Part shown: positions 350 through 53,451 of the stretch, piece by piece
Layout: each line of letters starts with the position of its first letter
Position numbering within the stretch: the stretch's first letter is position 1
Virus record (IMG/VR): IMGVR_UViG_3300014720_002243
Location: 1-64,000 of that record
Reading direction: 5' to 3' (one strand)
Length of the DNA stretch: 64,000 bases
Origin: a virus
Program-made: the position numbers and the translations under genes
The notes under the pieces: generated by a model
Database searches by the model: none
Told to the model about the DNA's origin: nothing
Seen by the model: only the letters and a program-made list of their open reading frames with translations

Positions 350-1546
350 CTAATCCTCCCCGACTAAGTAGAATCTTGGCCTTATAAGAGGAGGATTTAT
401 TGTTAACGGTGCAGCTGGACAATTAATGTATATACTTAAGGTATCATTAGATGCTAATACGTCATTTTCATATAAATGTACATATATAGTCAAAACATTA
501 TTGTTCAAATTATTCAGTATGTCTATATTGTTATTAATATCTATCTCTAAAAGTTGATTATTTCCATAATATAATTCTTCATTCTCAAATAATATCTTCG
601 CTTCCAAAGAACTACTAAATCTTAATCTATAATTGAAGCCTTTTCTTAAAGAGTGTAACCTAATCTTGAGTGTGGTCCCTGCTTTTTTATGAGTATCACA
701 AGCTCCGTCTATATGTTCTAGTTTTATGCTCTTTTGATTATTTTTAACATCGATATTTGAATTACATTGCTTATAAATAAACATAACTGATGGTTTATCA
801 AAGTTGTCTAAATCCTGATCTATAGTTTCATACCACAAATAATCGGGTATTTGCCCAGCCTTGTTGGATATAATAAGATATCCCTCATTAGTAGTTAATC
901 TTTTGATCTGGTTAAAAGGATCAGAAATATCGCTAGGATCAAACACTAAATAAGATCCCTTATCATCTGTAGTATAAATTTTTGTACTATTATTTAATAA
1001 ATTTGTTACTTCTGGAACAGGAACCCATGCTCCCTCCTGAGTTAAATAAGCTCCTTTGCCAGTGATCCAAACTAATCTATCTTTATCTATAGCTAAATTG
1101 CTAGTAGTCTGTGATATTACATTTAATATGATATTACCGCTAGCAGTATCGTTACCACTAGAACTCACACTATATGTGAAAGTATTAGATCCTGTTACAG
1201 TAATAGAGAACGAGCCGTTATATGCTGATGGCGAAGCCCCACTAACAACAATATTATTACCAGTAGATAAACCGTGATTAGTACTAGTAACCGTAACAAC
1301 CGTACCTGCTCTACTCATAGAAGATACTGTTTTAGGAGTGGATACTACGGGTCCTGGAACCTTGATAGACAAACCTCTTGGTAAACAAAAGTCCGGATTA
1401 GAGACAATATTACCGTCTTCAGGATCCGGTATAGGTTGATTAGCGTTCAATATAGATGATTGCTCAATTACATATGCAAATGTAAGCGGAAAAGTTTTAT
1501 TACTATATATAATTGGTTGTATATTTTGATTTATAATTTGTTTCAT
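350..1546 (-). CDS. Tail-fibre-region protein with an E1-FCCH-like beta domain
   Basis: 398-residue protein in the fibre block. Residues ~80-140 (VTVTSTNHGLSTGNNIVVSG, then a YNGSFSITV and TFTYSV pattern) match the short beta domain often annotated as the ubiquitin-activating-enzyme E1 FCCH domain in phage tail proteins; it has nothing to do with ubiquitin here. The segment around residues 150-240 resembles parts of the neighbouring 1663-residue protein (glycine/aspartate-rich loops, YLIISNKAGQIPDYLWYE compared with VIIIINKAEAPLPYEWYS), suggesting a shared structural module. The C-terminal third is beta-rich without a family I recognise. No signal peptide or membrane segment. Virion surface or fibre role is inferred from position and composition. 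Confidence 0.75.
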   Translation of the reverse strand: MKQIINQNIQPIIYSNKTFPLTFAYVIEQSSILNANQPIPDPEDGNIVSNPDFCLPRGLSIKVPGPVVSTPKTVSSMSRAGTVVTVTSTNHGLSTGNNIVVSGASPSAYNGSFSITVTGSNTFTYSVSSSGNDTASGNIILNVISQTTSNLAIDKDRLVWITGKGAYLTQEGAWVPVPEVTNLLNNSTKIYTTDDKGSYLVFDPSDISDPFNQIKRLTTNEGYLIISNKAGQIPDYLWYETIDQDLDNFDKPSVMFIYKQCNSNIDVKNNQKSIKLEHIDGACDTHKKAGTTLKIRLHSLRKGFNYRLRFSSSLEAKILFENEELYYGNNQLLEIDINNNIDILNNLNNNVLTIYVHLYENDVLASNDTLSIYINCPAAPLTINPPLIRPRFYLVGED

Positions 1547-1556
1547 AATTTAATTC

Positions 1557-4500
1557 TCAATCTATAATACCTATACTAAAATTACCACCAGCAGATATAG
1601 ATAACCATGTATAAGATGCTCCTATTCTAACAGGAACATATCTTGTAACGAATGTATCATCACCTAATTGACCAATATTATTACTACCCCAAGCCCATAA
1701 TTGACCTGTGGAATTGATAGCTAGAGCATGATTAACTCCAGCTGCTATATCTGTCCAATTAGATGCAGAGCCGATTCTTACTGGTACGAATGAGTATGCT
1801 CCTACTTCTGTTCCTAACTGTCCATTTAGATTATTACCCCAGGCCCATAGTTGACCTAAGCTATTTAAACCAATCATAAATTCATTACCTATAGCTATTT
1901 TAGTCCAATTATTCTGAGCACCAACTCTAAGAGGAGCGTTTCTATTTGTAGTATCCCCCAATCCTAATTGTCCAAAATTATTATTACCCCATGTATAGAG
2001 TTCACCGTTTGTGGTAATAGCAGCAGCACTAGTTCCTTCAGTGCTAGTAAAAATGTCTCTACAAGATAATGCTACTCCTCCTACCAAGGATAAGGCTGCA
2101 AAACCTACGGCGGCGGTGGTGTTTGTACCCACACCTAAAACTCCATTAGTATTAAGACCAGCAGCATATGCTCTATCGTTAACATCTATATAAAATGAGC
2201 AATTAGCGCCTGCGGCTATTTTCTTCACATTTGTAATTATGCTAGAGGTGGTGGAAGAATTAATTCTAACTGAGGTTAAATTTATATAATTGCTAGAAGC
2301 AGGATGATAACCAGAAGATCCTCCTACAAATAAATTAGAACCTGTGTCTAAAACCAGATAGTGAGTGAATCCAGCAGCGATCTTCTTTATACCGTTAACA
2401 CTAGATAGTCTTGGACCTTGATTCGCTACGTTCGAAGAATTTGCCCCCCATGAAAACTGCTGCCCCGAACTGTTAGTAGCTATAGCAAAATTAGAACCAC
2501 TATCTATTTGTGTAAAATTATTAGCATTAACAGTACTAACATTAGAGCCATATTGAGTAAAACTATTTGTACTAGCACCTATAGTTGATTGTCCAGAATA
2601 GTATATTGTATTATTTTTAATGGTCATAGAGAATCTAAAAGGCGACATCGATAAACTATTATAATTTTGAGATGTTTCTATTCTTGTTGTTACCGGTTTG
2701 GCAGCCGAGGTGCCATCTCCTAAAAGACCCGTACTATTGTATCCCCAACCATATAATTCTCCTAAACTATTAATAGCCATACTACTATATATTGATGTGA
2801 CAATAAAATTTGGTAACCAATTCGAAGATGAGCCTACTTGTATAGGTGTAGCTCTTACATTTGTTGTTCCATCTCCCAATTGACGGTTATCGTTTCGTCC
2901 CCACGCCCACAATTGTCCAGCACTATTTACAGCTAATACATGGTTTGCATATGATCTTGATACAGCTCTAACCCAGTTCGAAGAAGAGCCAATTCTGGTA
3001 AATGAAGTAGTAACTAAGTTATTATTGAGACCTAGTCCAGTCTGTCCATAAGAGTTAACGCCCGCGGCGAATAGCTTCCCATCTGTAGAGATGGCAACAA
3101 TAAAATTGTCATAATATTTGGAGGTACCACCCAAAAGACCTCCTATAGTTACATCCGACCACCCAGTTATACCCGTTGGTGGTGTTATTTTGGTAAATGT
3201 AGGTATAACAACGGGGTTGTCGGCGCCAGTGCCAAAAAAGCCAGTACCAGCAACCCATAATTCACCAATACTATTTATCGCTGCACTAACTGTAGTTCCA
3301 ACAGAGGCTTTTACCCAATTACTTGCGGTTCCTATTCTCATAGGTGTAGCACTAGTGGAGGTGGAGCCGTTACCTAATTGACCAGCCCAATTAGATCCCC
3401 ATCCCCATAACTCCCCATTACTATTTATAGCTAAAGCATGACTATCTCCGATAAAAACTTGTGTCCAGTTACTTGCGCTCCCTATTCTCGTCGGTGAAAA
3501 TGTAGTGCCGGAGACGGAGCCTATTCCGGTTAAACCATTAGCATTGTTACCCCAACCATATAGTTTACCATCAGTAGTTAAAGCAATAATTGTTTCATCC
3601 GACAAGCCCCCTCCTAAAAATATTTGACTCCAAGATATTCCTAATGGAGCTGGTAAAGATCTGTTGGTACGAAAACCGTCTCCTAAATTACTATTACTAT
3701 TATCTCCCCAAGATAATAAACTTCCTTGTGGATATATTATTATGCTAGAACTATTAGTATATGCTCCTAAACCTATACTATTACGAGCAGCAACTCTAAA
3801 CACATATGATGGTCCAATAGCAACAGTTGGCGAAGCAATATTAATACTATTAGATACGGTATTGGTGCTTACATTTGACCAAGACACACCATTATCATTA
3901 GATATTTGGATGGTATAGTCAATAATATTACTTCCATTAGATTGCGGTGTGCTCCATGAAAGGTCTATACTATTACTAGTTATAGTACCAGAAACAGCAG
4001 ACGGAGCCGAAGGTACTGCCGCAAATAATAATGGAGATGTTGATGAACTAATGGCTCCACCTCCAACTCTATTTATAGCTGCTACTCTAAAAATATAAGA
4101 CTGTCCAAAAGTTAAACCTGTAATTGTTGCTGAAGTAGCTGAAGAGACCCCATCGTTTACTTGTACCCAGGTAGCATACGAGCTAGAGCTAGAAGCATAC
4201 TGAACCGCATAATCAGTAATAGTTGCTCCTCCATTGTTACTAGGGGCAGTCCAAGATAAATTAATATTTAATCCAGATAAATTTGCAAATAAACTCGTTG
4301 GCGCTGCGGGTAGTGTTGCTGGAATGGTACTGGCACTATTTATGCTATACTGGCCGGTTCCGGCAGAATTAACAGCTGCTACTCTAAAAATATAAGAAAC
4401 ACCATTTGTTAAACCTGTAATTGTTGCGGTTGTTAATGTTGAAGGCGCTCTAGTAACATTTGTCCAAGAAGCTCCAACATTATTCGAATATTGAATAAGA

Positions 4501-6548
4501 TAATCTGTTATAGCTGCTCCTCCATTATTTGGCACAGTCCATGAGATAGAAGCTTGAGCATCGCCTCCAGTAACCGAAGTAACAGTTGGTGCAGCAGGAG
4601 GGGATGCGATTGGGGATACTGGTGATAATGTTGTTGCATATGAACCGGATCCGGCCCCGTTTGTTGCGGCAACCCTAAAGAGATACGGAGTGCCATTAAC
4701 CAACCCTGTAACCACTACGCTGGTATTAATGCTAGTACCATCGTTAAAAGTGGTCCAAGACGATCCTGAATCAGAACTATATTGAATCGTATAGTCTCTA
4801 ATAATAGAAGCGGCCGGAGCAACCCAAGATAGATTTACTAAAGTATTGCCAGCCACGGCTACTAGATCTGTTGGTTCTCCCGGAGGGGTAAGAGGTGTAG
4901 TTGGAGTTGGGGTTGGGGTGGGAGTAGAAGTGGATGTTTGGGTTGGAGTTGGAGTTTTTGTTTTCGTAGGAGTTCTAGGAGGATATGACTTTAAAGATTT
5001 AGAAGCTGTTGGAGTTGGTGTAGTAGCGCAAAAATCTCTATCACATTTCTCTAGAGTTAGATATGATGTAGAGGTTACATAATTATCTAAATTAATAACT
5101 TTAATATATAAAGTAGTTCTTATTTTACCAATCCCCGTAGTCATCAATGTTCTAATATTTTCTGTTGTATTACCATTATTTATAATGCCATTATTAGTAA
5201 CAAAAGAGATATCATCAGTATTCGTTGTATCTCTAGGCTCGTCAGGATTAGCATTGCCATAGGCATGAACTCCAAATTCATAATAATACCTAGATTCTTC
5301 AGACATATTAGTTACTGTAGCTGATAAAAAGTCTTTATAACAGTCTTCGCAGTTATCTATTACCAATCTAGGACCAGCATCAAAAACTACTGTGTGTTTT
5401 TTACTCGAAGGAGTTGGTGTTGGAGTTGGGGTGGGTAGGTTTAACAATTGTTTTGTACTAAACTTGAACCTATCCTCACTAAGTAAAACTAGATTATCGT
5501 CATACAGTCTAACTCTAACTTCATATGGACCAGTTTTTTGAATATAAAAAGCACTATTAATATAAGTAGAGCTAGATATTCCTGGTATAGATATAATATT
5601 ATTTTGAATTAAATTTCTTTTTTCATAAACAATATTGTCAGAATCCACCTCTACAGAAAAAGGATATTTAACAACGTCTTGGGTAAGTTCTATATAGGGA
5701 TTATTGAGTGTAGCGTTATAAAAATATAGTTTAGTTTTATTTAAGCTCTTAATCAAAAAATAGTTATTGCTTAGGAAATTAGGGTCAGCAGCCGATAAAA
5801 TTCTCCAATTATTTAGCTTGCCCTGACCGTTTAATCCGTCGCTAACTAGTTGCTGATTTATAACAAGATTACCTTTGCTATCTATTGTGTAGTCGCCGCC
5901 TTCTTCTAAGTCATATTGAAAAATATTCCTATAGTCGATATCAGGAGACTGAATAATGTCTGTAATAACATGATAGGTTGATTCTGATAAAGTGTTATAA
6001 ACTTCTGATGTGAGAACTATTGGATAACTTGATAAATTATTTAAATTAAGTATTATTTCATCCGTTTTGTCATTATAAGATGTTCCAAGAGCACAAAAGT
6101 TATTTAGTATAATTTCTTGATTAAATCTTACTTTAGGATCATAAATCTTATTATAAGAGTACCACTCATAAGGAAGTGGTGCTTCGGCTTTATTAATAAT
6201 AATTATAACATCGTTTTTTGAAATAGTATAGAATTGATTAAAATTATCTGTAGGACCATTATATATTAAATATGTAGATTCTTCAGTAACCTTATATATT
6301 TTTTTAACGTTTTGAAAAAATGAAAAATAATATGGAACTAAAGATGTTCCTGTATATTTATACATTCCGTTTTCTATTATATTGTCTTGGGCTGTTAGTA
6401 GAACAACAGCATTATTATGTAAAGATAGAGTTAAATCCTCTAAATCTAAATTAGACGATGATACATAGTCCGGCACCAACAAAAGATCTTCGTCTCCGTG
6501 GTATTGAATAATCTGAATAGGTTTTGTTATTTTTTCTACTGTTAGCAT
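1557..6548 (-). CDS. Giant tail/adhesin protein: four fibronectin type III domains plus RCC1-repeat propeller(s)
   Basis: 1663 residues. Residues 1-400 are an unrecognised beta-rich N-terminus. TP-rich linkers lie near residue 375 and around 520-550. Four fibronectin type III domains follow (~555-935), recognisable from repeated LSW, DY-IQYS and Y-FRVAA-N-G patterns. From ~940 to the end there are many RCC1-type repeats (LYGWGNN, LWAWGSN, GQLGDGT, HALAINS), enough for roughly two seven-bladed propellers. FN3 and RCC1 domains are protein or carbohydrate binding modules, so a host-surface recognition role on the tail is likely. The internal repetitiveness creates several false short frames on the other strand. 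The gene is 10 bp from the downstream fibre gene and 2 bp from the upstream one. Confidence 0.85.
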   Translation of the reverse strand: MLTVEKITKPIQIIQYHGDEDLLLVPDYVSSSNLDLEDLTLSLHNNAVVLLTAQDNIIENGMYKYTGTSLVPYYFSFFQNVKKIYKVTEESTYLIYNGPTDNFNQFYTISKNDVIIIINKAEAPLPYEWYSYNKIYDPKVRFNQEIILNNFCALGTSYNDKTDEIILNLNNLSSYPIVLTSEVYNTLSESTYHVITDIIQSPDIDYRNIFQYDLEEGGDYTIDSKGNLVINQQLVSDGLNGQGKLNNWRILSAADPNFLSNNYFLIKSLNKTKLYFYNATLNNPYIELTQDVVKYPFSVEVDSDNIVYEKRNLIQNNIISIPGISSSTYINSAFYIQKTGPYEVRVRLYDDNLVLLSEDRFKFSTKQLLNLPTPTPTPTPSSKKHTVVFDAGPRLVIDNCEDCYKDFLSATVTNMSEESRYYYEFGVHAYGNANPDEPRDTTNTDDISFVTNNGIINNGNTTENIRTLMTTGIGKIRTTLYIKVINLDNYVTSTSYLTLEKCDRDFCATTPTPTASKSLKSYPPRTPTKTKTPTPTQTSTSTPTPTPTPTTPLTPPGEPTDLVAVAGNTLVNLSWVAPAASIIRDYTIQYSSDSGSSWTTFNDGTSINTSVVVTGLVNGTPYLFRVAATNGAGSGSYATTLSPVSPIASPPAAPTVTSVTGGDAQASISWTVPNNGGAAITDYLIQYSNNVGASWTNVTRAPSTLTTATITGLTNGVSYIFRVAAVNSAGTGQYSINSASTIPATLPAAPTSLFANLSGLNINLSWTAPSNNGGATITDYAVQYASSSSSYATWVQVNDGVSSATSATITGLTFGQSYIFRVAAINRVGGGAISSSTSPLLFAAVPSAPSAVSGTITSNSIDLSWSTPQSNGSNIIDYTIQISNDNGVSWSNVSTNTVSNSINIASPTVAIGPSYVFRVAARNSIGLGAYTNSSSIIIYPQGSLLSWGDNSNSNLGDGFRTNRSLPAPLGISWSQIFLGGGLSDETIIALTTDGKLYGWGNNANGLTGIGSVSGTTFSPTRIGSASNWTQVFIGDSHALAINSNGELWGWGSNWAGQLGNGSTSTSATPMRIGTASNWVKASVGTTVSAAINSIGELWVAGTGFFGTGADNPVVIPTFTKITPPTGITGWSDVTIGGLLGGTSKYYDNFIVAISTDGKLFAAGVNSYGQTGLGLNNNLVTTSFTRIGSSSNWVRAVSRSYANHVLAVNSAGQLWAWGRNDNRQLGDGTTNVRATPIQVGSSSNWLPNFIVTSIYSSMAINSLGELYGWGYNSTGLLGDGTSAAKPVTTRIETSQNYNSLSMSPFRFSMTIKNNTIYYSGQSTIGASTNSFTQYGSNVSTVNANNFTQIDSGSNFAIATNSSGQQFSWGANSSNVANQGPRLSSVNGIKKIAAGFTHYLVLDTGSNLFVGGSSGYHPASSNYINLTSVRINSSTTSSIITNVKKIAAGANCSFYIDVNDRAYAAGLNTNGVLGVGTNTTAAVGFAALSLVGGVALSCRDIFTSTEGTSAAAITTNGELYTWGNNNFGQLGLGDTTNRNAPLRVGAQNNWTKIAIGNEFMIGLNSLGQLWAWGNNLNGQLGTEVGAYSFVPVRIGSASNWTDIAAGVNHALAINSTGQLWAWGSNNIGQLGDDTFVTRYVPVRIGASYTWLSISAGGNFSIGIID

Positions 6549-6550
6549 AA

Positions 6551-7228
6551 TTATAATACTTCTACTTTAATAGAACCTAAATTACCATTTGGATACAATC
6601 CTGATTCAAATTTAGCAGTGAGTGGTAAGAAATTGGTCGAATTGAGATTCTGATAATACAACAATTCAAAGGACATGGATGGTTTATAATCACTGATAGC
6701 GGACATTCTGGCTATTAGAATCTCATTACCTGCTGATACATAAGAAATATTAAATGCTTTTGGTAAGCCCTCATTTGGAGTAACAGGATTAAATCTCAAA
6801 GAATTTCTGGCTCCGGACGTAAAAGATATTCCATGACCAGATACAGAGCATATATCTTCGCATGTTTCTGGAATAGATAATGAGGTGGAATAATCCATAG
6901 AAACTTGGTTTAGATCACAAACTGGACTTGGTTTATACATAACTATTCTTCCTGTAACTAATTTAGTATATAAATTTCCTGTAACAGCATTTAAAACTAT
7001 CTCTCCAACAGCCAGATCGTTGGGACACGGATGATTGGTTGTTGTCTGATCTCTTTTAAGTAGTATCCTGTTAGGTTTTTTAACGAAATTTTGAGCTAAT
7101 TGTTTAAAATTAGTATCATTCTCGTCTGGTACAGGATTTACTATGGGTGGTTGAGGCCCTAAAACGTGTACTGTTCCAGGATCCAGATTGCTCCATATAG
7201 GTTGTTTTTCGTCAGATGGCCATCCCAT
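6551..7228 (-). CDS. Tail fibre-associated protein with a fibre N-terminal-type motif
   Basis: 225 residues. Residues ~70-95 contain LAVGEIVLNAVTGNLYTKL, close to the GELAxNxADGKLYTK motif common at the start of phage tail fibres and receptor-binding proteins. The rest is beta-rich with no recognised domain. It lies between the giant RCC1/FN3 protein and the 2240-residue adhesin-like fibre, so it may connect or trimerise fibre parts. Translation starts at an ATG right after a run of intergenic sequence that also contains a GTATATACT motif (see the late-spacer finding). The specific function is unknown. Confidence 0.75.
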   Translation of the reverse strand: MGWPSDEKQPIWSNLDPGTVHVLGPQPPIVNPVPDENDTNFKQLAQNFVKKPNRILLKRDQTTTNHPCPNDLAVGEIVLNAVTGNLYTKLVTGRIVMYKPSPVCDLNQVSMDYSTSLSIPETCEDICSVSGHGISFTSGARNSLRFNPVTPNEGLPKAFNISYVSAGNEILIARMSAISDYKPSMSFELLYYQNLNSTNFLPLTAKFESGLYPNGNLGSIKVEVL

Positions 7229-7285: not shown

Positions 7286-10200
7286 TTACGAACATTGTAG
7301 ATTCGCGCCACTACAAGTACCTCCAAAAACAACCAATCCTCCATCAATAGTATCAAAGCTATTTAATGTATCAATATACAAGTTTTCAATTTTTGTGGAG
7401 CCCTGAATAGTTGTATCTGCAAAAATTGGTACATTACCATTGATTTTTGACGAAACCGCTCCTGAACCAATTACAGCAGGCGTATCGGTATTATATAGTA
7501 AGTGTTGATTCTTTTTATTGTCAACCAATAAATCATCATAAGTAAAGAATCTTAAATTACTTCCAAAAACCATACCGTGACGATTATATAGAACTGAATT
7601 ATGAGGAATCACAACATTACCAAGATTATCTATATTTGATAACATCAATCCGTCGGTATATGTTAGACCCTTTACAGAAAGTGAGGCTGCTAGAGGAATA
7701 TTACCTTCGGCTTTTGTTAACGTTGTATTATTTTGACCATCAACTGTAGATAAACCTAGCTGTCTTTTGATAACTTTAACCTTAATATTGTTATTCACAA
7801 TACCTGTGGTTTCTATACCTTTATTGTCTTTGACTCTCTGGATGTTTCCGATTCTATCATCAACAAGACCCGGATTAACAGCCGTCAATGATACTCTAAT
7901 ATCCCACTCTACTGGTGCGCCCTGAGTAGAGGTGGGGATGGTTTTAGTAACAATCTGTCCAAGAATTTTTTGAGTGTTATCATATATAATTTCAATTACG
8001 TCTCCAACCATAAAATCTATTGATAATGGAATAGCCGACCCTGTTAATCTCAATAGAGACGATGTTTCTTCTACTTTACCCAATAAATACTTTTCTTGCC
8101 ATCCATAATCGTAATAAATAGGACTATTAATGTCTGATTTATAATCTGATAATAAAGAACTGTTAAAAGTAATATTTTTATTATAAGCTCCATAAATAGC
8201 AGACTTAGAAGTATTAATACTCACTGTTCTATTTATACTATCAACTAAGAACGAAGGATCTGGTCTATTAACTTTGAAACCTCCATAAACAGCGAAGTCT
8301 ATTCTCTTTCCAGAAGTATTAAATAGATTAGGTACTCCGTCTCTATTACTCAATACTAATTCTGGCGTTGTTCCTGGGAAATTGAAGGTAATATAACCTC
8401 CTACTCCCTCAGACATAATAGCGACTTGTCTCAACTGATTACTAGCATCTAAAGAATATGTAGACTGATCTATTTCTAGTTTTTCGCTTAATACTATCTG
8501 AGTCTGTAATGTTTTTTCTGTTGTGGTTTTTTGACCAGATAACCAAACAGCATTAACACCCAATACTCTAACTTTAACAATTTTCTGAGGATATGGCTGT
8601 CCTTCGATATGATTATCAGGTTTGTAATAAATTACTATTCTAACAATATCTCCCATGCTAACTCTTTTTGTCGCATCTCCATCTATCCAAACTTCTGTTT
8701 TTTGTAAAGAGTTATTGTATAATAACAATCCAGCTAATGCATTACTATAACCATAGTAAAATACATTTTCGGTACCGTCTATAGTTGATTCATTAATAGA
8801 ATTGTTATCATTTTGATAAGGAGGCTCATTAAACTTGTTAGTTTTTCCAGTTCTATAGTATGTGTTGGGCGCGGGATTTTGTGCAAATAGGAGGGTGTTT
8901 CTCGTTATACCTCTTATTCTAAAAGAATTGGAGATAGATTCGGCATCTGATCTAACATTTAAGGTATCCCTAATTAATCTAGCTGATGTTAGTATATCAT
9001 TAGTTTCGACTGGGAAATTAGCTATATCGATTAATGGGTCTAATGATCCCTCTACAAGTGTTGTATCAACGCTCTTAGGTACAGTAATGATATCATTAGA
9101 TGAACGACTAACGCCGTCTGGACCCTCATCCCAAACAGCAAAACCATAAGCATCAGACCTTAGATACATACCTCTAGTAGATCTAAATAAAGGTCTACCT
9201 TTTTCATCAACCATTTCTCTTACTTTTGTAGCGTCTTGTGGATCTACTTCGACTTGTCTAGTTAATCCAGTACCTATGCGAATGCCGCTAGTACCTATCC
9301 AGCCTCTAACTGTTAGATCCGCAAACCAAACACCACTCTCTTTTGGATTACAGGGTTGGCACTCGTCTCCTGGAATTGGAACCGGTATCCAGCTTGGTTT
9401 CATAGTATGTAACATAAAGCTGTTTATAGAAGCATTATAGTAAAATGCGGGAACTTTTGTTACACACGGAATATCAATTGGTACAGCGTCTGGGTCTAGC
9501 TTCCAAACTTTATAATCCGATTCAGAACCTATTGTGAATTTCGGCACATCTACACTATCAGCTGTCCTATACTTTGAACCTGTACCATAAATAATAAAGT
9601 CTGTTTCTTGTAGACCCATATTGAATGCTGTTGGCACTGCTCTATCTAAATCTGTGTCTCCTCCGGGCACTTTGGCAGCATCGTCTGGAGCCCCTCTCTC
9701 ATCCCACCATCCCTTAATATCGTTTTGAGTTTCCATTGGCCTAAGATATGTAGCCAATTCTGTATCTATTACAGCACTAGAAGCATGTAACTGCTCGGTA
9801 TAGAATGTCATTTCGTCTTTATTAAAACGATAATGAATTTTCTTTTGTCTTGTATTTTTCTTTGGAATAGTGGACAACATATACTGTGGAGCTACCATAC
9901 CATTTGGTAGTGAGGCGGCAGCAAACGATCCTCCTATATCTGTTTCCTCTATATTATCGTTAAGAGGAGAAGGCATAGAATTTTTTCTACGACCAATTGC
10001 AAATACGCCTTCTTTATTATATCCAGCTGAAGCTAATATTCTGTCGTATGTAGAATCAGCAGTTCCTCCGATGCTTTTATATTCTTTAGTAATCAATTCT
10101 GGAACGAAGTAAAGCACATTTGCTGAGAAAGGAACGTAGTAGCTTTCTGGGTTACGTCTCTCTTCTCTTCCCAATGCTAATAACTTATTTGCATATTCTA

Positions 10201-13200
10201 ATTTATAAGGATTGACATCCGCGCTTTTTTCTAATTCTGTTAGAACTTCAGCTAGAACATTTCTTCTTAATCCATCCAAAGACATTACAGCATATTTGTC
10301 ACACCATAAATATTGATCAAATACTAAGCCGCTTCTAGCTATAACGCATCCAGAAGGATTGTATATTACTTGATTAAGTGGTACAGTGGAGGCATCTACC
10401 ACCGACCTAACCAACTGAGACATCGGCTGTATTTTACCATCAGTAAGATTTGATCCGCTCCAATACATTAATGTTCCGGGCAATCCTTGAAAATCGATCT
10501 TTAGTCCAGATTTCCACTCAACCTCTCCGTTCTCATTTTTACTAGTTAAAAAGTATCCTGCGGAAGCATTATTAGGAATTGATAGAAAATTAATAGTTCC
10601 TGAAGTAGCTAATAATGTTGTGGTTCTAGTAGAGCCAACGACATCCAAAGTATTTTGAGGAGTAGATGTGTTTATACCTACCCTATTTTCAGAACTAGGT
10701 ATGATAAGAATAGCCGGTTCGCTAACCTCAGATGTTCCCATTACTCCAACAGCAGTATCAGACTGGAATTTAGAATTAAATAAGATACCTCTTCTAAAAG
10801 AATTCCTACCTACAATTTCTTTGTTGACATTGATTCTAGTTGGAGGAACGGTGAACGGATCTATAATTTCCGACACTATGGTGTCTTGACGGCCTCCCAA
10901 ATCAAATAACTTAAATCCATGATCTACGTGTCCGAAATAAATTGAGTTAGGATCAGTATTTGTTGTTCCTAATCCGATTGCTCCTTGAAAAACAGAAAAA
11001 GAAGGATATCTCCAATTAAATCCATTTCTATCAATAAACCAACTTCTTTCAATAGTATTATTATGTCCGATAACAATACCAGAGTATGAAGTAGTACTAC
11101 CTATTTCAAATCTATTACTATTAACATCAGTACCGTATTTATTATTATTACCAAAAACACCTAAATAACGACCTTCTGTAATAAAGTTTTCATCGCCAAT
11201 TACCACTTTATTCTCGTCAGTAATAGGATAAACAAAAGCGTCTATATTGTCGGGTATAGCAGAGGTTGGGAATAGGGCCTTTACAAAATTTTGTAGTGGT
11301 ACCGGATTAAATGTATCAAATAATGGGTTGAGTGTTGTTCCGTAATTAGGGCCCTTCTCTGCAAAATACATCTGGTCGCCTCTAACAAAGGTGGCGTAAC
11401 CAGAAAAAGCAGGAAGATATGTGCCGCTTATAGCAAGTTGAACAATTAATTTCTGTGAATTAACTACTCTTCCGTCGGTAGGATAGAATCTAGCAGCGTT
11501 TTGACTAAGAACTATAGCATCTAATGAAGAATCATAAGAACCTGAAGAAAAAATTAAACTATCATTAGTATTAAAAAATTTGCCATAACCAATAATAGTA
11601 TTACTATCTCCTACGATAGACGTATTTCTATCATAGACTCTATTCCCGCTGCCAATAACATCTCCGTTGATAACAAAATTATCTGACCCTAATATAGAAC
11701 TAAATTGATATTCATTAGTATTATTAAAACCAATATTAGTTAAATCATTAGTAATTCCTTTAAAATTGTGTCCTATATTAATAATGTTGTTACCACTACT
11801 AGAAACTAGTTTGGAGCCGATATTAATAACATTATTACCAGTAATATTAGATGAAGAAGATATATTAGTAATCATATTGCCAGAAGCTTTATTTAGATTA
11901 CCAATAATAAGTCCAGACATACCAATAATAGTATTAGTATTACCTATAATAGTATTTGGATTACTATAATTATATGTAATTTCATCTTGTAATGTTTGTG
12001 ATTTAATATATAGTGTTTGATTCAACAAACTACTAGGGATAGGATTTTGAAACTCTATAGTGAATTGTGAGGATTGATCATTGGATGGTGGAATCTTATT
12101 TTCTATAACAAAGATCTCGTCTGAATCTCTTAATGATACCCTGTCTCCAACTCTGAATAGATTACTATTAGTTAAATCAGTAAGAACAGAATATTCAGAG
12201 TCATAAAAAGCTTCTACTGGCTGTACTGTTAAATCAAATATATTATCTAGCTTATTATTATCTCCTACTACATTGATATTTTGTATACCAGAACTTATAA
12301 TATTGTTTTGTCCAATGACATTAGCATCAATATATGTGCCAGATCTGAGTATATTATTATGACCATACAAATTAATTTTTAGTACATCTTCTGTTTTATT
12401 ATTATTACCAGTAATAATAGAATGAGAACCGCTAGAAAGTATATGTGAACCTATATCTATATTATTATTACCGCTTATAGATCCATGATTACCAATAAAA
12501 ATACCTGAGTTAGATAATAAATTTTGCTGGTTACCAAAAATTAAATTATTGTTCCCACTAGCACTTAAATTAGATCCTATAGCAGATATTTGTGAGCCGG
12601 TTACATTAAGTGAATTACCAATAATATTATTGTTGACGCCACTAACCCTATTGTATGATCCTAGAATATTACCACTGGATAAAACTATATTGTTATTAAA
12701 TCCTAATAAAGATGTTAAATCTATAGATCCTAAATTATTAGAACCTAAAACTATTCCAGAAACAGAGTTTACGATATTATTGTCACCTAATACCACACTG
12801 CTTATGGATCCGCTGGCTATTGTATTATGAGAACCATTTAGAACAATAGCCGACACGCCGCTAGAAGCATTATGACTACCAAAAACAATAGTCCCACTAG
12901 CATCTATAGAGTTATATGATCCAAGTATAAAAGAGTTTTCTATATCGCTACTACCAGAAGATAAAATACCTGTTAGTTTTTGTGTTTTAACATTATTATA
13001 ACTACCAAACATAAAAATATTATTGCCACTAACAGAAGAAGAATTACCTATAGCAATAACATTATTTCCAGATAGAGCATTTTCACTACCAATTAGAATA
13101 TTAGAAGTCCCTATATACGCAACAGCAACTGTATCATCTATCTTTGTCCATATACCAGTATTAGCGACATAATATCCGTTTAAAAGAGCATTATTTTCTA

Positions 13201-14008
13201 TCTTTACTATATCACCTTGTGCTAAGTCATCATTTGGACCCCAATTCAAATCAGACGGCATTCCTAGAAGTGGACTTTCCCCAACATCGTAACCTAATAC
13301 ATATACAACACTATTTTTAATTAAATCAATACTATTATCTGATCCTAGTAAATACAAATTATTACTACGATTAGCAAAATTTCCATCTCCAATAACTTTA
13401 GAATTATTTACATAAGATAAAGAATTACCTGAACCTAAAACGCTTGTGTATGTAGCATTATCAACATTATTAATACCTATTTGATTAACACTATCATCTA
13501 GTTTCAGTATAGACTTTGAGACGCCAGATGACTCAACATTAACAACAAACTGACCTCTTGTTTGTCCTTTGAGCGGATTAAGTATTTTGGATTGTACTTG
13601 TGCGAAATTTACAACATTACGATTATTATTTCTTGCGGATAGGTTTAATGATCCAGCTATGCTTCCAACTTGTGGTACCACATCTGGATTGTTATACAAC
13701 GTTAGTGCTACTCCTCCTGCTCCGCAGTTGCCTTCAAAAACAGCACATCTTCCAACCATATGAAAATTTGGGGATGATTCATATACAGGAAAACTTGGAG
13801 TATTGATGGCCACTTTACCATCTTTAGTAAGAATGAAGAAGTTTCCTTGATTAAGGCTAATTTTTAATGGGTATAGTCCTGATGAGGCTATTTGTGTGGC
13901 CCCCAATACAACACTAGCGTCTATAGGATTTGTATAAGAACCAGAATTACCAATTATCAAAGAATTATTGCCGCTACTCCAGAATAGATTTGGTTGAATT
14001 TCTGCCAT
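7286..14008 (-). CDS. Very large tail fibre with YadA-head-like left-handed repeats
   Basis: 2240 residues. Residues ~180-760 are dominated by degenerate 14-16 residue repeats of the type SGNNNIIGNxNxIxGSN (for example NNVIAIGNSSSVSGNNIF, NTIIGNTNTIIG). This is the pattern of the head domain of YadA-type trimeric autotransporter adhesins, a left-handed parallel beta-roll. Beyond ~residue 1100, NTLDVVGSTRTTTLLATSG and ASAGYFLTSKNENGEVEWKS resemble phage fibre shaft or chaperone-attachment segments. The remainder mixes beta-rich domains up to a C-terminus ending in a Gly/Cys-rich stretch. It is probably a trimeric long side or central fibre. It starts 13 bp downstream of the tape-measure stop, so the two may share a transcript. 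Confidence 0.85.
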   Translation of the reverse strand: MAEIQPNLFWSSGNNSLIIGNSGSYTNPIDASVVLGATQIASSGLYPLKISLNQGNFFILTKDGKVAINTPSFPVYESSPNFHMVGRCAVFEGNCGAGGVALTLYNNPDVVPQVGSIAGSLNLSARNNNRNVVNFAQVQSKILNPLKGQTRGQFVVNVESSGVSKSILKLDDSVNQIGINNVDNATYTSVLGSGNSLSYVNNSKVIGDGNFANRSNNLYLLGSDNSIDLIKNSVVYVLGYDVGESPLLGMPSDLNWGPNDDLAQGDIVKIENNALLNGYYVANTGIWTKIDDTVAVAYIGTSNILIGSENALSGNNVIAIGNSSSVSGNNIFMFGSYNNVKTQKLTGILSSGSSDIENSFILGSYNSIDASGTIVFGSHNASSGVSAIVLNGSHNTIASGSISSVVLGDNNIVNSVSGIVLGSNNLGSIDLTSLLGFNNNIVLSSGNILGSYNRVSGVNNNIIGNSLNVTGSQISAIGSNLSASGNNNLIFGNQQNLLSNSGIFIGNHGSISGNNNIDIGSHILSSGSHSIITGNNNKTEDVLKINLYGHNNILRSGTYIDANVIGQNNIISSGIQNINVVGDNNKLDNIFDLTVQPVEAFYDSEYSVLTDLTNSNLFRVGDRVSLRDSDEIFVIENKIPPSNDQSSQFTIEFQNPIPSSLLNQTLYIKSQTLQDEITYNYSNPNTIIGNTNTIIGMSGLIIGNLNKASGNMITNISSSSNITGNNVINIGSKLVSSSGNNIINIGHNFKGITNDLTNIGFNNTNEYQFSSILGSDNFVINGDVIGSGNRVYDRNTSIVGDSNTIIGYGKFFNTNDSLIFSSGSYDSSLDAIVLSQNAARFYPTDGRVVNSQKLIVQLAISGTYLPAFSGYATFVRGDQMYFAEKGPNYGTTLNPLFDTFNPVPLQNFVKALFPTSAIPDNIDAFVYPITDENKVVIGDENFITEGRYLGVFGNNNKYGTDVNSNRFEIGSTTSYSGIVIGHNNTIERSWFIDRNGFNWRYPSFSVFQGAIGLGTTNTDPNSIYFGHVDHGFKLFDLGGRQDTIVSEIIDPFTVPPTRINVNKEIVGRNSFRRGILFNSKFQSDTAVGVMGTSEVSEPAILIIPSSENRVGINTSTPQNTLDVVGSTRTTTLLATSGTINFLSIPNNASAGYFLTSKNENGEVEWKSGLKIDFQGLPGTLMYWSGSNLTDGKIQPMSQLVRSVVDASTVPLNQVIYNPSGCVIARSGLVFDQYLWCDKYAVMSLDGLRRNVLAEVLTELEKSADVNPYKLEYANKLLALGREERRNPESYYVPFSANVLYFVPELITKEYKSIGGTADSTYDRILASAGYNKEGVFAIGRRKNSMPSPLNDNIEETDIGGSFAAASLPNGMVAPQYMLSTIPKKNTRQKKIHYRFNKDEMTFYTEQLHASSAVIDTELATYLRPMETQNDIKGWWDERGAPDDAAKVPGGDTDLDRAVPTAFNMGLQETDFIIYGTGSKYRTADSVDVPKFTIGSESDYKVWKLDPDAVPIDIPCVTKVPAFYYNASINSFMLHTMKPSWIPVPIPGDECQPCNPKESGVWFADLTVRGWIGTSGIRIGTGLTRQVEVDPQDATKVREMVDEKGRPLFRSTRGMYLRSDAYGFAVWDEGPDGVSRSSNDIITVPKSVDTTLVEGSLDPLIDIANFPVETNDILTSARLIRDTLNVRSDAESISNSFRIRGITRNTLLFAQNPAPNTYYRTGKTNKFNEPPYQNDNNSINESTIDGTENVFYYGYSNALAGLLLYNNSLQKTEVWIDGDATKRVSMGDIVRIVIYYKPDNHIEGQPYPQKIVKVRVLGVNAVWLSGQKTTTEKTLQTQIVLSEKLEIDQSTYSLDASNQLRQVAIMSEGVGGYITFNFPGTTPELVLSNRDGVPNLFNTSGKRIDFAVYGGFKVNRPDPSFLVDSINRTVSINTSKSAIYGAYNKNITFNSSLLSDYKSDINSPIYYDYGWQEKYLLGKVEETSSLLRLTGSAIPLSIDFMVGDVIEIIYDNTQKILGQIVTKTIPTSTQGAPVEWDIRVSLTAVNPGLVDDRIGNIQRVKDNKGIETTGIVNNNIKVKVIKRQLGLSTVDGQNNTTLTKAEGNIPLAASLSVKGLTYTDGLMLSNIDNLGNVVIPHNSVLYNRHGMVFGSNLRFFTYDDLLVDNKKNQHLLYNTDTPAVIGSGAVSSKINGNVPIFADTTIQGSTKIENLYIDTLNSFDTIDGGLVVFGGTCSGANLQCS

Positions 14009-14021
14009 AATAAATTACCCT

Positions 14022-17000
14022 TTAAGCCATATTTTGACTGTTTTGATTGCTGTATGCGGACGGGTTGTAGTTCATACTGATAGCGCCATCCGTTTCCCTT
14101 GCTAGTTGGGCAAAAGCATTGTTTATCTCGTTTTTAATCATGTTAGAGACATATTTATCCATATTACTAAATACACTAGCGCCATTAATATTTACATTTA
14201 CATCGTGTTTACCGGTTATAGTTATAACTGGCGGAATATTTAGCTTTAATAACTCTTTGGTAAAGTTATCAAATCTTTGAGTAAAGTTATTCAATGAGGC
14301 TAATGTTGTTTCATCCAACTTCAAAGATGGAATAGCTAAGTTAGCCAATTTATTACTAAATTCACTAAATCTTGATGTAAATTCTCTAATTAAAGATATT
14401 GATTTATCATCTAATGATAAAGAATACATACTACCCAATCCACCAGTTTGTTGAACAGGCGTTTGGGTTCCTTGCTGGTAGTATTTTACAACTCCTCCTC
14501 TTTGATAGTTCTGACTATTAATTTGTTTTAGAAGAGGTAGGTTCTTTTGTGTGGCTCGTTTATTAATTACAAATTCGCCAGGAGTTAACATTGCTGGTAC
14601 AGTATCGGTACCTTTTGGAGCAAAATTTACTAATGACCCTGATGAATAATAACTGGGCACAAAACCACCCACCGCCATATTAACTGGACCGGTTGGCTGT
14701 GTTTTTGGTTCTGGCTTTTTATTTCTAGTAAAGTAATCTACGATAGACTTTAAGTTCTTTGTTTCTCCAAAATTTAATATTCTACTTTGGTTATATTTAT
14801 TTTTTACTTTTTGAGCATACTGGTTTATCTCTGCTTCTTTAAGAATATTATCTATATTATTTATCTCTGATCCTACCGCGGTCTTTTGGAAACTTAGAAT
14901 ATTGTCTGGGTCTTCGCCAGCAAAGGCTGATCTTAAAGTACTATCTCTTCCCTCTTTATTGATGTATGCATCTACTATATCTAAAGCTTCTTCTAGATTA
15001 AAAAATAGAGTGGTTAAAAAATTACTTCTATCTTTAAGCATTTGAGCGGCTGGTTCTACCGATTGCTTTACATAATTACCCTTTGAATCTTTCAAGCTAC
15101 TCAAAAATTTAGACGAATCAATATTTTCATCGGTATATGCTTCTTTATTCTTAATTTCAAAAATATCTGGCATAGCTTTATATTCATAGGCTAATTCATC
15201 AATTAATTTTAATGCTGGATCTTGCTTACTAAAAGATGTTTTCTGGTTTCTGTATATTCCTTGACCCATTACGAGTCTGTGTTGTTTGGCATCAAACCAT
15301 GGATATTTTGTCGATGCTGCTTTTTGGGCTAACTTAGAATCATTACCATATATTGTAGCTAATTTATTCATATCGTATGTCAAAAGTTCATTTGATGGTA
15401 AAATATTACCATTAGCATCAAAAATCTTACTCGTATCACCAGCCTGTGAACCTCTACCTCTACCAGCTTTTAATGGTACAACAAACCACTGATCATTAGC
15501 TTGTGAAAGATTTTTTTGAGTCGTTAATCTACTTTGATATAAACCAGAAACCTCGGAAACCAAACCTCCTCTAGCAAAATTTACAGCAGCAACTCTTCTT
15601 GATGCTCTTTCTTGCGGATCTTCTGTATCTGGTTGAAGCTTACTTGCCTCTATAGCGTCTTTTATATCTTTTGGTAAAGCAACCGTTCCTGCGATCTCTG
15701 ACGCTTGCATAATATATCCTTGTCCCTGAACCAATCTATTATTGATTTCAGCCAATACACGTAAAACATCACTTCCTGTTTCTTCAGGTATCATTGTAGT
15801 TAAACCTTTAGCGAGCTTTATATTTCCTATCTTGCTCGCCAATGCCGCCCCACCTATGGTGCTAGCTGCTACGCTTATACCATCTAATGCTCCTAACATA
15901 AGTTCATGATCACGTCCACTGGTTCCTCCTTTCATACCTGATCTAATAGCCAAAGCCATTTTTTCTTCCCATAGTTTTTTTTGATTTCCGGTAATTGCTT
16001 GAGCCCAAGAATCTGTAGATTCTAAATTGGAACCAAAAGTAGAGTCTACAGCTCCTAATACATTATTATATAAAGAAGCGTAATTCATTACCGCTCTTTC
16101 TAACTCTAATGCCGCCCCCTCATTCATAACATTAACAAATTCTGAAGTATCAAAACCTATAGCTCTAGTAAATGCATCTTTTGATCCAGGAAAGAGGTAG
16201 TCCGTCCCAGAAAGAAGCATGTCGGGTATTGAAACTACAGAACCCACAGTTAAACCAGCTAAAGCACCAGCAGCTCTTGTTGTTCCGACAGCAACATTAC
16301 TAATCATATCTAACATGCTTGAGAAAATCTTAACAGGCTTATATCCATTTCCGTAAGGTTCCCATTCTATAGCATTATTTATTAACTCTCCTAGTTTCCC
16401 TAATCCAGATGCGACCATTCCTGGAACGGTAGCAAAAGCTTTCTGTCTTTTGAGTTCTGGATGATCAAAATAATTTATTCCACTTCTACCTTGACTCTTA
16501 ACATATTCTTCATCAGCTTTTTCTATCATTCTCCATTCAATAGGACCAATACCTCTATCGTTTCTGTCAAAATACTGAGCATCATAACCTCTACCTATTT
16601 GATAAGGAACATTTAATTTTTTTGCTTCTCTTGGTGACAAAAGCATTGATCTTGGACCACCAGCCTTATCTCTTACATATGCTCCATCAGCAGCATAAAT
16701 TATTCCTCCTCTCATATAAGATTTACTATTACTTGTGGAGTTATTGATAGATTGTAATAATGGTAAATTCTTTTGTGTAGCTTGTCTATTTACAACAAAC
16801 TCACCAGGAGTAAGCATCGCTGGTACGGTATCTGTACCTCTCGGCTGGAAATTAATCAATTGACCATTAGAAGCATAAATCATCCCGCCGGTTTGTTTGT
16901 TTACTGCGGTTATTCTTCTTTGATTTTCCCAAGCCTTAATAGTGTCTAAGTCTTCTTGGTTCATAAATTCTCTTCTGAGAATAAGACTTCCTCCAGGAAC

Positions 17001-20000
17001 ACTATTGGTATCTATCATAATTCTTTCGGCATCCAATATACGATCAATTCTACCAACTATTTTTTCTGATTCTATTCCATCATTATTAAGATCCCATAAT
17101 CTTCCTCCATACCATAATCTATCTACATTATTAAATACTTGTTGACTTTCTGGTTTATTTGTGGACGAGGTTTTAGGAGCAGGAATACTACTGCTAGAGG
17201 ACTTAACTCTATTAAGATAATTTTTATCTCCTGAACTTAGCTTATCTATAGGCACGACTATATTTTTATTATTATTTTTGTTTAATTTAACATCTCTACT
17301 TTGATTAACAAAGGACATTAATTTTGCAATTGTATTATATTTACCAGAAACATCGATCCATTTTCTAAACTCTTGACCTAATACAGATATTTCATCCGAA
17401 ACATTAGTTACGGATCTATTCTCTGGTTTTTGTGGAAATACAGGTTCAGCAGCTTTTGTAGAAGTATATGCTACCTCTGCATCCGGCACCGGTACTGCTT
17501 CTGCTGTTGGTACAGCAAACTTCTTTTGTTTTTCTAGTACATTTGATAATAAAAAGTCAGATAATTTAGAAGCGATATATCCTTGGTTTGGATCGTATAC
17601 CAAACCAGCATTAGTACTTATTTTAGAAATCCTGTCTCTGCTTCTATATTGTTTAACAAAATCTGATCCGTATTCTTTCTCTAATCTATTTAATGCCTCA
17701 TTAATACCTATTTTTTGATAGGGATAAGGATCATCTACTGATAATTCTCTATTAGATAGTAAAGAAAATACAGATTCTTGCGACGATGGACCCAATAGGT
17801 TTATCGGGAAAGCAGTAACCCCCGCCGTTTTCTTTTCGGGTTCCATTATGTCTGTACCAGCGATCTTTAGTATAGCCAAGAATTGTCTAGCTGCGTCATA
17901 TGCTACTATTCTACCGTCTGTTCTATTTTTTCTATCCCATTTTTCAAATGTCATAGTTGGTGTAGATAGATTAATACTGCTAGTTGGACCTTCTTCTAGC
18001 ATTAATTCTCTTTTAAGAATCCTCTCTTTTCTTTCTTTGTACTCTTTTTCAAATTGTTGCGAGGCATTAATAGCATCACTATCGCTAATATAAGATTCAG
18101 CGGAATATTGAGGTTTATATGATTCTCTAGCTCTTCTACTAGCTTGTGCTCTAGAAGATGGAGAATACGCAGTTGGATCTTCTGCTGGTGGCATATATGG
18201 GTTTTCTTGTCTATTCCTCTGAGAAGCCATGGATCTAGATGATGGAGTCCATGTTGTTTCAGCCACATCTCTCTTGAAGCTTACAGATGTTTGATTTGGT
18301 CTAGCAAAAGAAACATCGGCTGACACCGGTTGAGCTTTTCTTACGACTCTACCTCTAGGAATGTCTCCTCCAAAACCAGCCCAACGGCCAGCTGTTAAAT
18401 CCCATACAAATTGTTTGAATCTATCCAAAGACATTGTTTGTTTCGAATTACCATAACCTAATATATCTTCATCAGAGGCTGATCTAATATCATTGACAAA
18501 TTGACGGATCCAGTCTTGTGGAGAATCAGACGATACAGGGTTTTGCGATCCGTTTTGTAGATATTTGACAACTCCTCCGGTTTGATAATTTTGACTATTA
18601 ATAGCTTGTAATAAAGGTAGATGTTTTTGAGTAGCCTGTCTATTGATGACAAATTCACCCGGAGTCAACATAGCTGGGATAGTATCTGTTCCCCTAGGTT
18701 GAAAATTAATAATTGATCCACCATTATTGTAATATCCTACGGAGCCACCCTTTGATCTATAAATGACATTTGAATCTTCTGTTGTGCTATCTCTGAGAGC
18801 TTCTTCTTTTTTAGCTTTTTCAAATAATGTAGCATATATTGTACCAGCTAAAGCTTTATAAGATGTTGTATAAGCTCCGGTACCTTTAATAGGATCAGCC
18901 GATCTATGATCAGGGTTTTCGTATAATTTACTATCAAAAGTATTAACCGGTCCTTGATATATAGTTCTTGGATCTTGTAATGTAAATTTCCCGGCTGCTC
19001 CTATCATATCGACTAATTCATTAAAAGCATTAGAAACGTTGGTAAATGCAGCATTATCTAAAAATGTTTCATATATTGACCAAGGATTAACTCCATTAAT
19101 ACTTTCTGTATTTAATGCATAGTTTGACAATCTAGGAGCTTTAATATCTCTATCATCTCCTTGTACTTTGATACCCTGAACAGAACTAATAGGCTGTGAC
19201 AAAATAGCATCTTTAAAAGCTAAATATGTCAATAGATCACTCGATGGATCTATCATAGACTTGATTCTATCAAGATTAGGATCTTTAACACCTCCAGGCA
19301 TATTAAATTTCTGAATAGCATCAGCTATATCCAGTCTGTAACCTTCTGTATAAATTTTCGTGGTATCTAGAGCTTTAGTTAATAAATCTGTTAAATTATT
19401 AGCTGGTGTTTCTGCTCCAATAGTAGCAGATCCCGTTGCTCCTATGGATAAGGACTGTATATCTTCTGCTAGATCATTAGCGTCTTGCTGATTAAATGAA
19501 GCCTGACTAGCTTTATTAAGAATGTTTTGAATATTTTCTATCATACCTTTACGGGAAATAATAGAAAGATTATATCTAGCAAAACCTGCCCAATCTGGAC
19601 CTCCAGCTTTCCACCACTGTTTGCCTCTCTTGCCAGCCACTCTCGAATCTTCAAAAACTGATAATTTATCTAAATCTTCCGTGCCAAAGAAACTTTTTTG
19701 CAGATCATTAAACTCGCTCGATAGTGTATTTGATGCTGCTGCTGTTTTACCCCCATTAACATAGAAACCCAACTGCAACAGACTCATCAATTCTTGGAAA
19801 GCTCCGGGATATTTAGCTTCGGTGGCATTCATTAGGTCTGCTGTTTTTTGTGTTTTATCCCAGCCCAAAGTTTGCAAATAAACCTTTCTTAGATTGTCTG
19901 GGACCTCCGGACCTCCGCTAAATAAATCCCCTATTCTACTATCTTGTAAGTTTTTAACCCATGGTGCTAAATCAGATAAATTCAAATTAGATATACTAGA

Positions 20001-53429: not shown

Positions 53430-53451
53430 AATGTATATAAAGGAGAATTTT

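Follow-up and report, generated by a model that had tools for sequence, protein, structure and literature searches.

RCC1-like proteins have been detected in phage virions by mass spectrometry, with three of them, all in phrog_4219, in W70 (PMC11370258) and one in GAP32 (PMC5259590). In honeybee bifidobacteria, RCC1 proteins are found at the cell surface, where they are clustered, anchored to the wall through LPxTG, and composed of 2-4 domains of about 7 repeats (PMC4449606). These articles and the one on phAPEC6 cited below are drawn on in excerpt, and what we say of them applies to those excerpts. A literature search of titles and abstract openings, mostly of open-access articles, returned neither an FN3-RCC1 phage protein nor an account of RCC1 as a phage adhesin; many of its matches were apparently culture-collection numbers prefixed with RCC1.

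Here we describe a phage protein of 1663 amino acids (aa) in which four FN3 domains are followed by 14 RCC1 repeats. It is encoded in the window, the 64,000 nucleotides analyzed, which are bases 1-64000 of a viral record 84,699 bases long. We compare it with its neighbors, with its counterparts in sister records, and with RCC1 proteins of viruses and prokaryotes in general, and we weigh what such a protein may do.

Domain architecture

The protein is the product of an open reading frame (ORF) with an ATG start. Its parts are given below from the N terminus, the two linkers and the four-cysteine segment being delimited by sequence.

1557-6548, minus strand: whole protein, 1663 aa, with an N-terminal part, Pro/Thr linker, Cys-bearing segment, Pro/Thr linker, four FN3 domains and 14 RCC1 repeats
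5436-6548, minus strand: N-terminal part, residues 1-371, without a Pfam match, presumed anchor
5400-5435, minus strand: Pro/Thr linker 1, residues 372-383
5025-5399, minus strand: four-cysteine segment, residues 384-508, possibly Ig-like
4881-5024, minus strand: Pro/Thr-rich linker 2, residues 509-556
3726-4880, minus strand: four FN3 domains, residues 557-941, from sequence profiles
2610-3722, minus strand: RCC1 repeats 1-7, residues 943-1313, predicted first propeller, from repeat count, model and fold match
1560-2609, minus strand: RCC1 repeats 8-14, residues 1314-1663, putative second propeller, from repeat count, with the model confident only at 1494-1663

The Pfam matches lie far beyond chance. 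The fn3 family (PF00041) is matched at an E value of 1.2e-46 (157 bits against a cutoff of 25) in four stretches, which bears out the four FN3 domains of the preliminary description. RCC1 (PF00415) is matched at 1.9e-67 (224 bits against 21.7) in seven stretches, and the RCC1-like domain WD40_RLD (PF25390) at 4e-100 (336 bits against 150). In the DNA, eight RCC1 repeat matches fall at 1572-3728, seven of them over the curated cutoff. Cut by eye at the repeat motif, residues 943-1663 give 14 repeats of 42-62 aa each, among which repeats 8-11 are degenerate. RCC1 domains have seven blades, so the 14 repeats make two propellers by count, in agreement with the earlier placement of about two propellers at residues 940-1663. 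Among PHROG families, the protein matches the RCC1 families phrog_7220 (1.9e-72), phrog_4219 (5.4e-71), and phrog_16766 (5.4e-49), and its FN3 part matches tail proteins, namely phrog_6977 (minor tail protein) and phrog_31 (central tail fiber J).

Recent duplication of blades is ruled out, as the highest nucleotide identity between any two repeats is 0.65 and no repeat is therefore a fresh copy. The second propeller is likewise no recent copy of the first, since the mean amino acid identity of repeat i to repeat i+7 (0.315) is no higher than at offsets 1-9 in general (0.296-0.335). There is also no clear sign that the FN3-RCC1 part arrived recently from a foreign source. GC3 in the six segments of the protein is 0.18-0.27 (0.213 for FN3 and 0.269 and 0.197 for the RCC1 halves), near the 0.20-0.23 of five other window genes. 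Overall GC is 0.37-0.41 in the FN3-RCC1 part versus 0.29-0.31 in the N-terminal segments, a gap that may be explained by amino acid make-up.

The N-terminal part has few likenesses. Pfam recognized no known anchor domain in it, a protein search found no relatives in any of 20 records, and a scan of viral contigs gave 11 pattern matches and no true relatives. Within a 20-protein set, residues 71-130 resemble the product of the 398-aa neighboring gene (30% identity over 63 aa; E value, 1.9e-4), and the four-cysteine segment is weakly similar to a protein of sister record G008 (30% over 54 aa; E value, 0.003). An AlphaFold2 model of the N-terminal part, built on an alignment of two sequences, was meaningless (mean pLDDT, 29) and was left unused.

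Predicted structure

As a whole, the AlphaFold2 model of residues 554-1663 is of low quality (mean pLDDT, 51.7; pTM, 0.41). It is fair to good at about 972-1269, where blocks are mostly at pLDDT 70-88, and good at 1494-1663. Values fall below 50 over the FN3 part, at 1270-1398, and in two shorter stretches up to 1493. The FN3 part, for which the alignment was nearly empty, was modeled at a pLDDT of ~30, and the FN3 assignment is therefore owed to sequence profiles.

Structural comparison supports an RCC1-like propeller fold for the first ring as modeled. In VIA-align, the ring matches UVR8 with a Z score of 34.8 and rmsd of 3.3 (319 of 370 residues aligned) and the RCC1-like domain of HERC2 with a Z score of 34.7 and rmsd of 3.5 (324 aligned). 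The first 14 rows are all RCC1-like domains (Z, 34.8-33.1), and matches to those of UVR8, HERC2, HERC1, and RPGR have Z scores of 31.6-34.8 over 308-325 residues. Further matches include RCC1 itself (Z, 29.8) and BLIP-II (Z, 20.9). The rows cover model residues 379-818, which are residues 932-1371 of the protein; because this range passes the end of repeat 7 (1313) and runs through a low-confidence stretch, the boundary of the first ring is approximate. Foldseek gave a single-ring match to the third domain of HERC2 (3kci; E value, 2e-22; TM-score by target length, 0.68; rmsd, 6.0). Its top rows were UVR8, with E values down to 1.3e-25 and poor superposition (rmsd, ~16; TM-score by target length, 0.43), in alignments of more than 600 columns that extend past one ring.

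The C-terminal part thus did not turn out to be something other than a beta-propeller, the fold on which the preliminary description depended. Of the two rings it expected, prediction delivers one RCC1-like ring and is confident of the other only in its last part (1494-1663). The second propeller would have seven blades by repeat count, and its closure is putative.

In eukaryotes, RCC1 binds chromatin and is the Ran exchange factor, which raises the possibility that the protein acts inside the host cell, for example, as an exchange factor. RCC1 is, however, not the nearest fold (Z, 29.8 versus 34.8 for UVR8), with the caution that a fold match is no proof of function either way, and the size of the protein, its FN3 domains and Pro/Thr linkers, and its position among structural genes make an intracellular role extremely improbable.

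Gene neighborhood and sister records

The minus-strand gene order is tape measure, 2240 aa, 225 aa, RCC1 protein, 398 aa, which puts the RCC1 gene within the tail block, three genes on from the tape-measure gene. Beyond the 398-aa gene the contig continues for 349 bases, and the block is seen only to there.

47320-49350, minus strand: large terminase subunit, 72-82% identical to the viral loci kept (80 of 120)
14022-33653, minus strand: tape-measure protein, 6543 aa, matching phrog_28 (E value, 3.3e-22) over its first part
7286-14008, minus strand: 2240-aa protein, with relatives in 6 of 24 sister records
6551-7228, minus strand: 225-aa protein, to which G008 and G018 have relatives in a comparable position
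350-1546, minus strand: 398-aa neighbor gene, with a short region in common with the N-terminal part of the RCC1 protein

Judged by the terminase, the window phage belongs to an uncultured lineage that includes large phages. Records with terminase relatives reach 232,683 bases, while all comparisons with 46 named phage records are below 60% identity; among the 30 named-phage matches listed, identity is 23-34% over 22-71% of the protein.

The 398-aa gene is possibly a second member of an adhesin block. Relatives of the 225-aa protein occur in 3 of 24 sister records, the third being weak (E value, 1.9e-4), and a relative of the 2240-aa protein directly follows the tape-measure gene in G005, G007, and G008. 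The tape-measure protein is 50% identical to its G008 counterpart over 652 aa. It holds six copies of the motif DT[VI]PA[ML]LxPGEFV, a match to SHD1 (PF03983; E value, 1.7e-8) at about residues 5428-5486, and, by pattern only, two further motifs, Walker-A-like at 1110 and HEAFH at 1994, neither of which had Pfam support in the pieces scanned. Elsewhere in the window, on the strand opposite the structural genes, 53431-55278 (plus strand) encodes a 615-aa protein that matches phrog_13807 (E value, 1.4e-206) and, weakly, amidotransferase families.

The comparison with G008 is the most informative. There, a tape-measure gene of 4284 aa is followed by genes of 862 and 159 aa, an island of ~31 kb, and a pair of paralogs (611 and 652 aa). 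Relatives of this pair come directly after the 2240-aa counterpart in four other sister records, and after two intervening genes in a fifth. The G008 island thus lies between genes that are adjacent in relatives, and the window protein is at the matching place. The island (L103/L104, G008:C1:79967-111063) lies between conserved tail genes and holds 14 ORFs of 150 aa or more, several of them similar to one another and several with Pro/Thr-rich stretches, so that it looks like a large adhesin region. Four of its ORFs have RCC1 repeats. In all four, the best Pfam RCC1 region lies inside the protein, with more than 100 residues between it and the C terminus, and Pfam found fn3 in none of them (one was scanned minus its last 58 residues).

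RCC1 was found in 3 of the 20 records searched, one of which, G001, was drawn from an FN3 search and not via the terminase. In G018, FN3 domains are found in an 899-aa protein adjoining the relative of the 225-aa protein. Genes with GGVLAPNGDIHFVP-type repeats were seen by eye near FN3-bearing proteins at L009:9221-11023, another repeat type in a possible adhesin region.

RCC1 proteins in viruses and prokaryotes

With 13 RCC1 sequences as leads, scans located RCC1 coding stretches both in viral contigs (at least 595) and in prokaryote genomes (at least 572). RCC1 proteins are thus frequent in both. The rarity suggested earlier was overstated, given these numbers and the existing PHROG families. 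For closer study, the viral and prokaryote sets were each the best 80 loci by similarity to a window-led alignment and are not random samples. The best 79 viral loci contain 169 RCC1 ORFs, up to 8 per locus.

The fusion with FN3 is another matter. FN3 and RCC1 occur in one ORF in 2 of the 169 viral cases, in none of 38 in an earlier, partly duplicate viral set, and in 4 of 97 in prokaryote genomes; these tallies are lower limits, the profile having been made from the four window FN3 domains only. Pfam found no fn3 in four RCC1 proteins of named phages. Ig-like partners were seen in the 17 members scanned (16 of them with RCC1), TIG in 6 and He_PIG in 6. With tblastn against 28 matched phage records, no place covers 80% of the query, no best place spans both the FN3 and the RCC1 blocks, and RCC1-type rows start no earlier than residue 918, the edge of the FN3 block. 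The exact build of the window protein was not met again in the sets scanned, although each ingredient was, as was the order FN3 then RCC1. The combination, which had been called unusual, is therefore rare and not unique, and the phage RCC1 proteins to which it belongs are a widespread class.

Viral RCC1 spans tend to come in whole propellers. After removal of identical ORFs and those at locus ends, 132 of the 169 were kept for counting, with near-copies remaining among the 79 loci. Expressed in units of 352 aa, the repeat span differs from a whole number by no more than 0.1 in 114 of these 132 complete, nonidentical ORFs, and the other 18 fail the rule; the unit is the best of six tried, with 104 to 114 of 132 fitting for units of 345-358 aa. 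Most spans (87 of 132) round to one propeller, and the largest is about eight. Above 500 aa, 32 of 45 fit, whereas 5000 uniform draws, an easy null, averaged 9.2 and never exceeded 20. The RCC1 span of the window protein, 721 aa, is 2.05 units. Counting copies, 150 of 154 complete viral ORFs have repeats that end within 15 aa of the C terminus, and the median N-terminal extension of complete viral RCC1 ORFs is 28 aa.

Some of these genes stand in rows. At L278:1674-11764 there are eight RCC1 genes, each about one seven-blade propeller, with short N termini that are all different, followed in most by a proline-rich stretch; a near-identical row is found in L280. By eye, RCC1 genes in L107, L109, L111, and L113 are followed by glycosyltransferase-, methyltransferase-, and sulfotransferase/TPR-like genes, and genes annotated as sulfotransferase, glycosyltransferase, TPR, and 2OG-Fe(II) oxygenase lie at a similar place in S-SRM01.

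Other neighbors point to the tail. In S-SRM01, baseplate wedge and long tail fiber genes adjoin RCC1 genes. In BUCT-ZZ01, an RCC1 gene is separated from a tail fiber gene by one gene, and in LIBA6276 it adjoins one, with a second tail fiber gene two genes further on. Among 30 upstream neighbors of viral RCC1 genes (those of the 79 loci that passed the filter, near-copies included), 10 match the tail-fiber family phrog_9017, a count that low-complexity repeats can inflate, 5 match collagen repeats, and 2 match homing endonucleases; the first-listed is without a match.

This setting bears on the proposal that the RCC1 part organizes the DNA packed into the head. For the RCC1-like proteins of phAPEC6 and W70, an ordering or encapsulating role was proposed by the authors (PMC7247149, PMC11370258). 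PHROGs assigns these RCC1 families to DNA, RNA and nucleotide metabolism, and viral RCC1 stretches are indeed slightly positive overall (median, +3.8 per 350 aa; n = 146). The net charges of the RCC1 halves of the window protein, however, are +2 and 0, weak for a DNA condenser, and its RCC1 part is fused to four FN3 domains and Pro/Thr linkers in a gene of the tail block. Taken together with the tail-fiber genes near RCC1 genes in other phages, this leaves a DNA-organizing role improbable.

Function of the protein

We consider it likely that the window protein is a virion-surface adhesin on the tail of a tailed phage, with an N-terminal anchor, an FN3 stalk, and a propeller head. This is the best explanation of the tail-block position, the Pro/Thr linkers, the FN3 stalk, the C-terminal head, and the tail-fiber neighbors elsewhere. 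It sustains the earlier reading as a tail protein or adhesin, to which the domains, the PHROG tail matches, the place after the tape-measure gene, and the neighbors of RCC1 genes in other phages all lend support. The adhesin would be mounted on the tail, probably at the tip or baseplate, through the N-terminal part (residues 1 to about 508), which seems private to this protein. The two Pro/Thr-rich linkers would be hinges and the four FN3 domains the stalk, and the two seven-bladed C-terminal RCC1-type propellers would form the head touching the host surface, where they may bind protein or glycan. Tail fibers usually bind with their C-terminal end, and the mostly C-terminal position of viral RCC1 repeats supports an adhesin.

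A related possibility is a decoration of the virion surface, such as a whisker or tail-shaft fiber, that adheres loosely to cells, glycans, or particles and increases the encounter rate, and is not a receptor-binding protein proper. The internal RCC1 regions in G008 indicate that RCC1 does not generally form a terminal head in this lineage, which makes the adhesin tip slightly weaker and a decoration slightly stronger, and several such genes lie side by side, with up to 8 RCC1 ORFs in a row. Hair-like tail appendages are reported for phAPEC6 and CBB (PMC5259590), and phAPEC6 has eleven RCC1-like proteins (PMC7247149). CBB, however, is hairy yet without the RCC1-like protein of GAP32 (PMC5259590), and the excerpts of PMC5259590 and PMC7247149 do not assign RCC1 to the hairs. 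We regard a decoration as unlikely and the tail adhesin as the likelier reading.

By itself the window protein is of modest importance. The broader point is that RCC1 is widespread in uncultured phages, yet is handled as a DNA protein by PHROGs and, in the excerpts, by PMC7247149 and PMC11370258; the phage class is probably misfiled as DNA-related. We are evenly divided on a wider proposal, namely, that tailed phages may use seven-blade RCC1 propellers generally as an interchangeable module for adhesin heads, with whole propellers being added or dropped (7, 14, 21 to about 56 blades) and with the genes often arranged in rows of alternative adhesins. The phage genes named "regulator of chromosome condensation" would then be receptor-binding arrays and not DNA-packing proteins, with the window protein as a long-stalked member. 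Were RCC1 repeats adhesin heads, they would point to probable determinants of host range in many environmental phages and would represent a binding scaffold in closed sets of seven blades.

Comparison with known systems

The nearest described relatives are the phage RCC1 virion proteins (PHROGs 7220, 4219, and 16766; W70_237-239; GAP_001 of GAP32; and those of phAPEC6), tailed-phage proteins of which there are often several per genome. The window protein matches these families by sequence. It differs in build from the W70 proteins, which are 40-43 kDa, in having 1663 aa with an N-terminal part, Pro/Thr linkers, four FN3 domains, and two propellers. Closer in domain order are two viral ORFs, L260:4697-6088 and L231:5689-7053, in which FN3 directly precedes a C-terminal seven-repeat RCC1 region, as in the window protein, although they are shorter (463 and 454 aa), each with a single FN3 domain, 7 repeats, and no long N-terminal part.

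Other systems resemble it in the FN3 or the RCC1 part. A row of FN3 domains is found in a phage tail or putative tail protein at L010:6519-9755, an FN3-matched ORF with no RCC1 match, and in minor tail proteins of Microbacterium phages, which match the window protein in the FN3 block only. The RCC1-like domains of BLIP-II, UVR8, and HERC2 have, by prediction, a fold in common with it; their contexts are unrelated, and no shared function is implied. BLIP-II is a beta-lactamase inhibitor that works outside cells. The surface RCC1 proteins of bifidobacteria resemble the window protein in their multiple domains of ~7 repeats and are encoded in tandem gene clusters and displayed on the cell surface (PMC4449606). 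They have an LPxTG wall anchor and Flg_new repeats, with FN3 unmentioned in the excerpts of that article, whereas the window protein has FN3. Together with BLIP-II, the bifidobacterial proteins provide precedent for RCC1-fold proteins that act outside cells.
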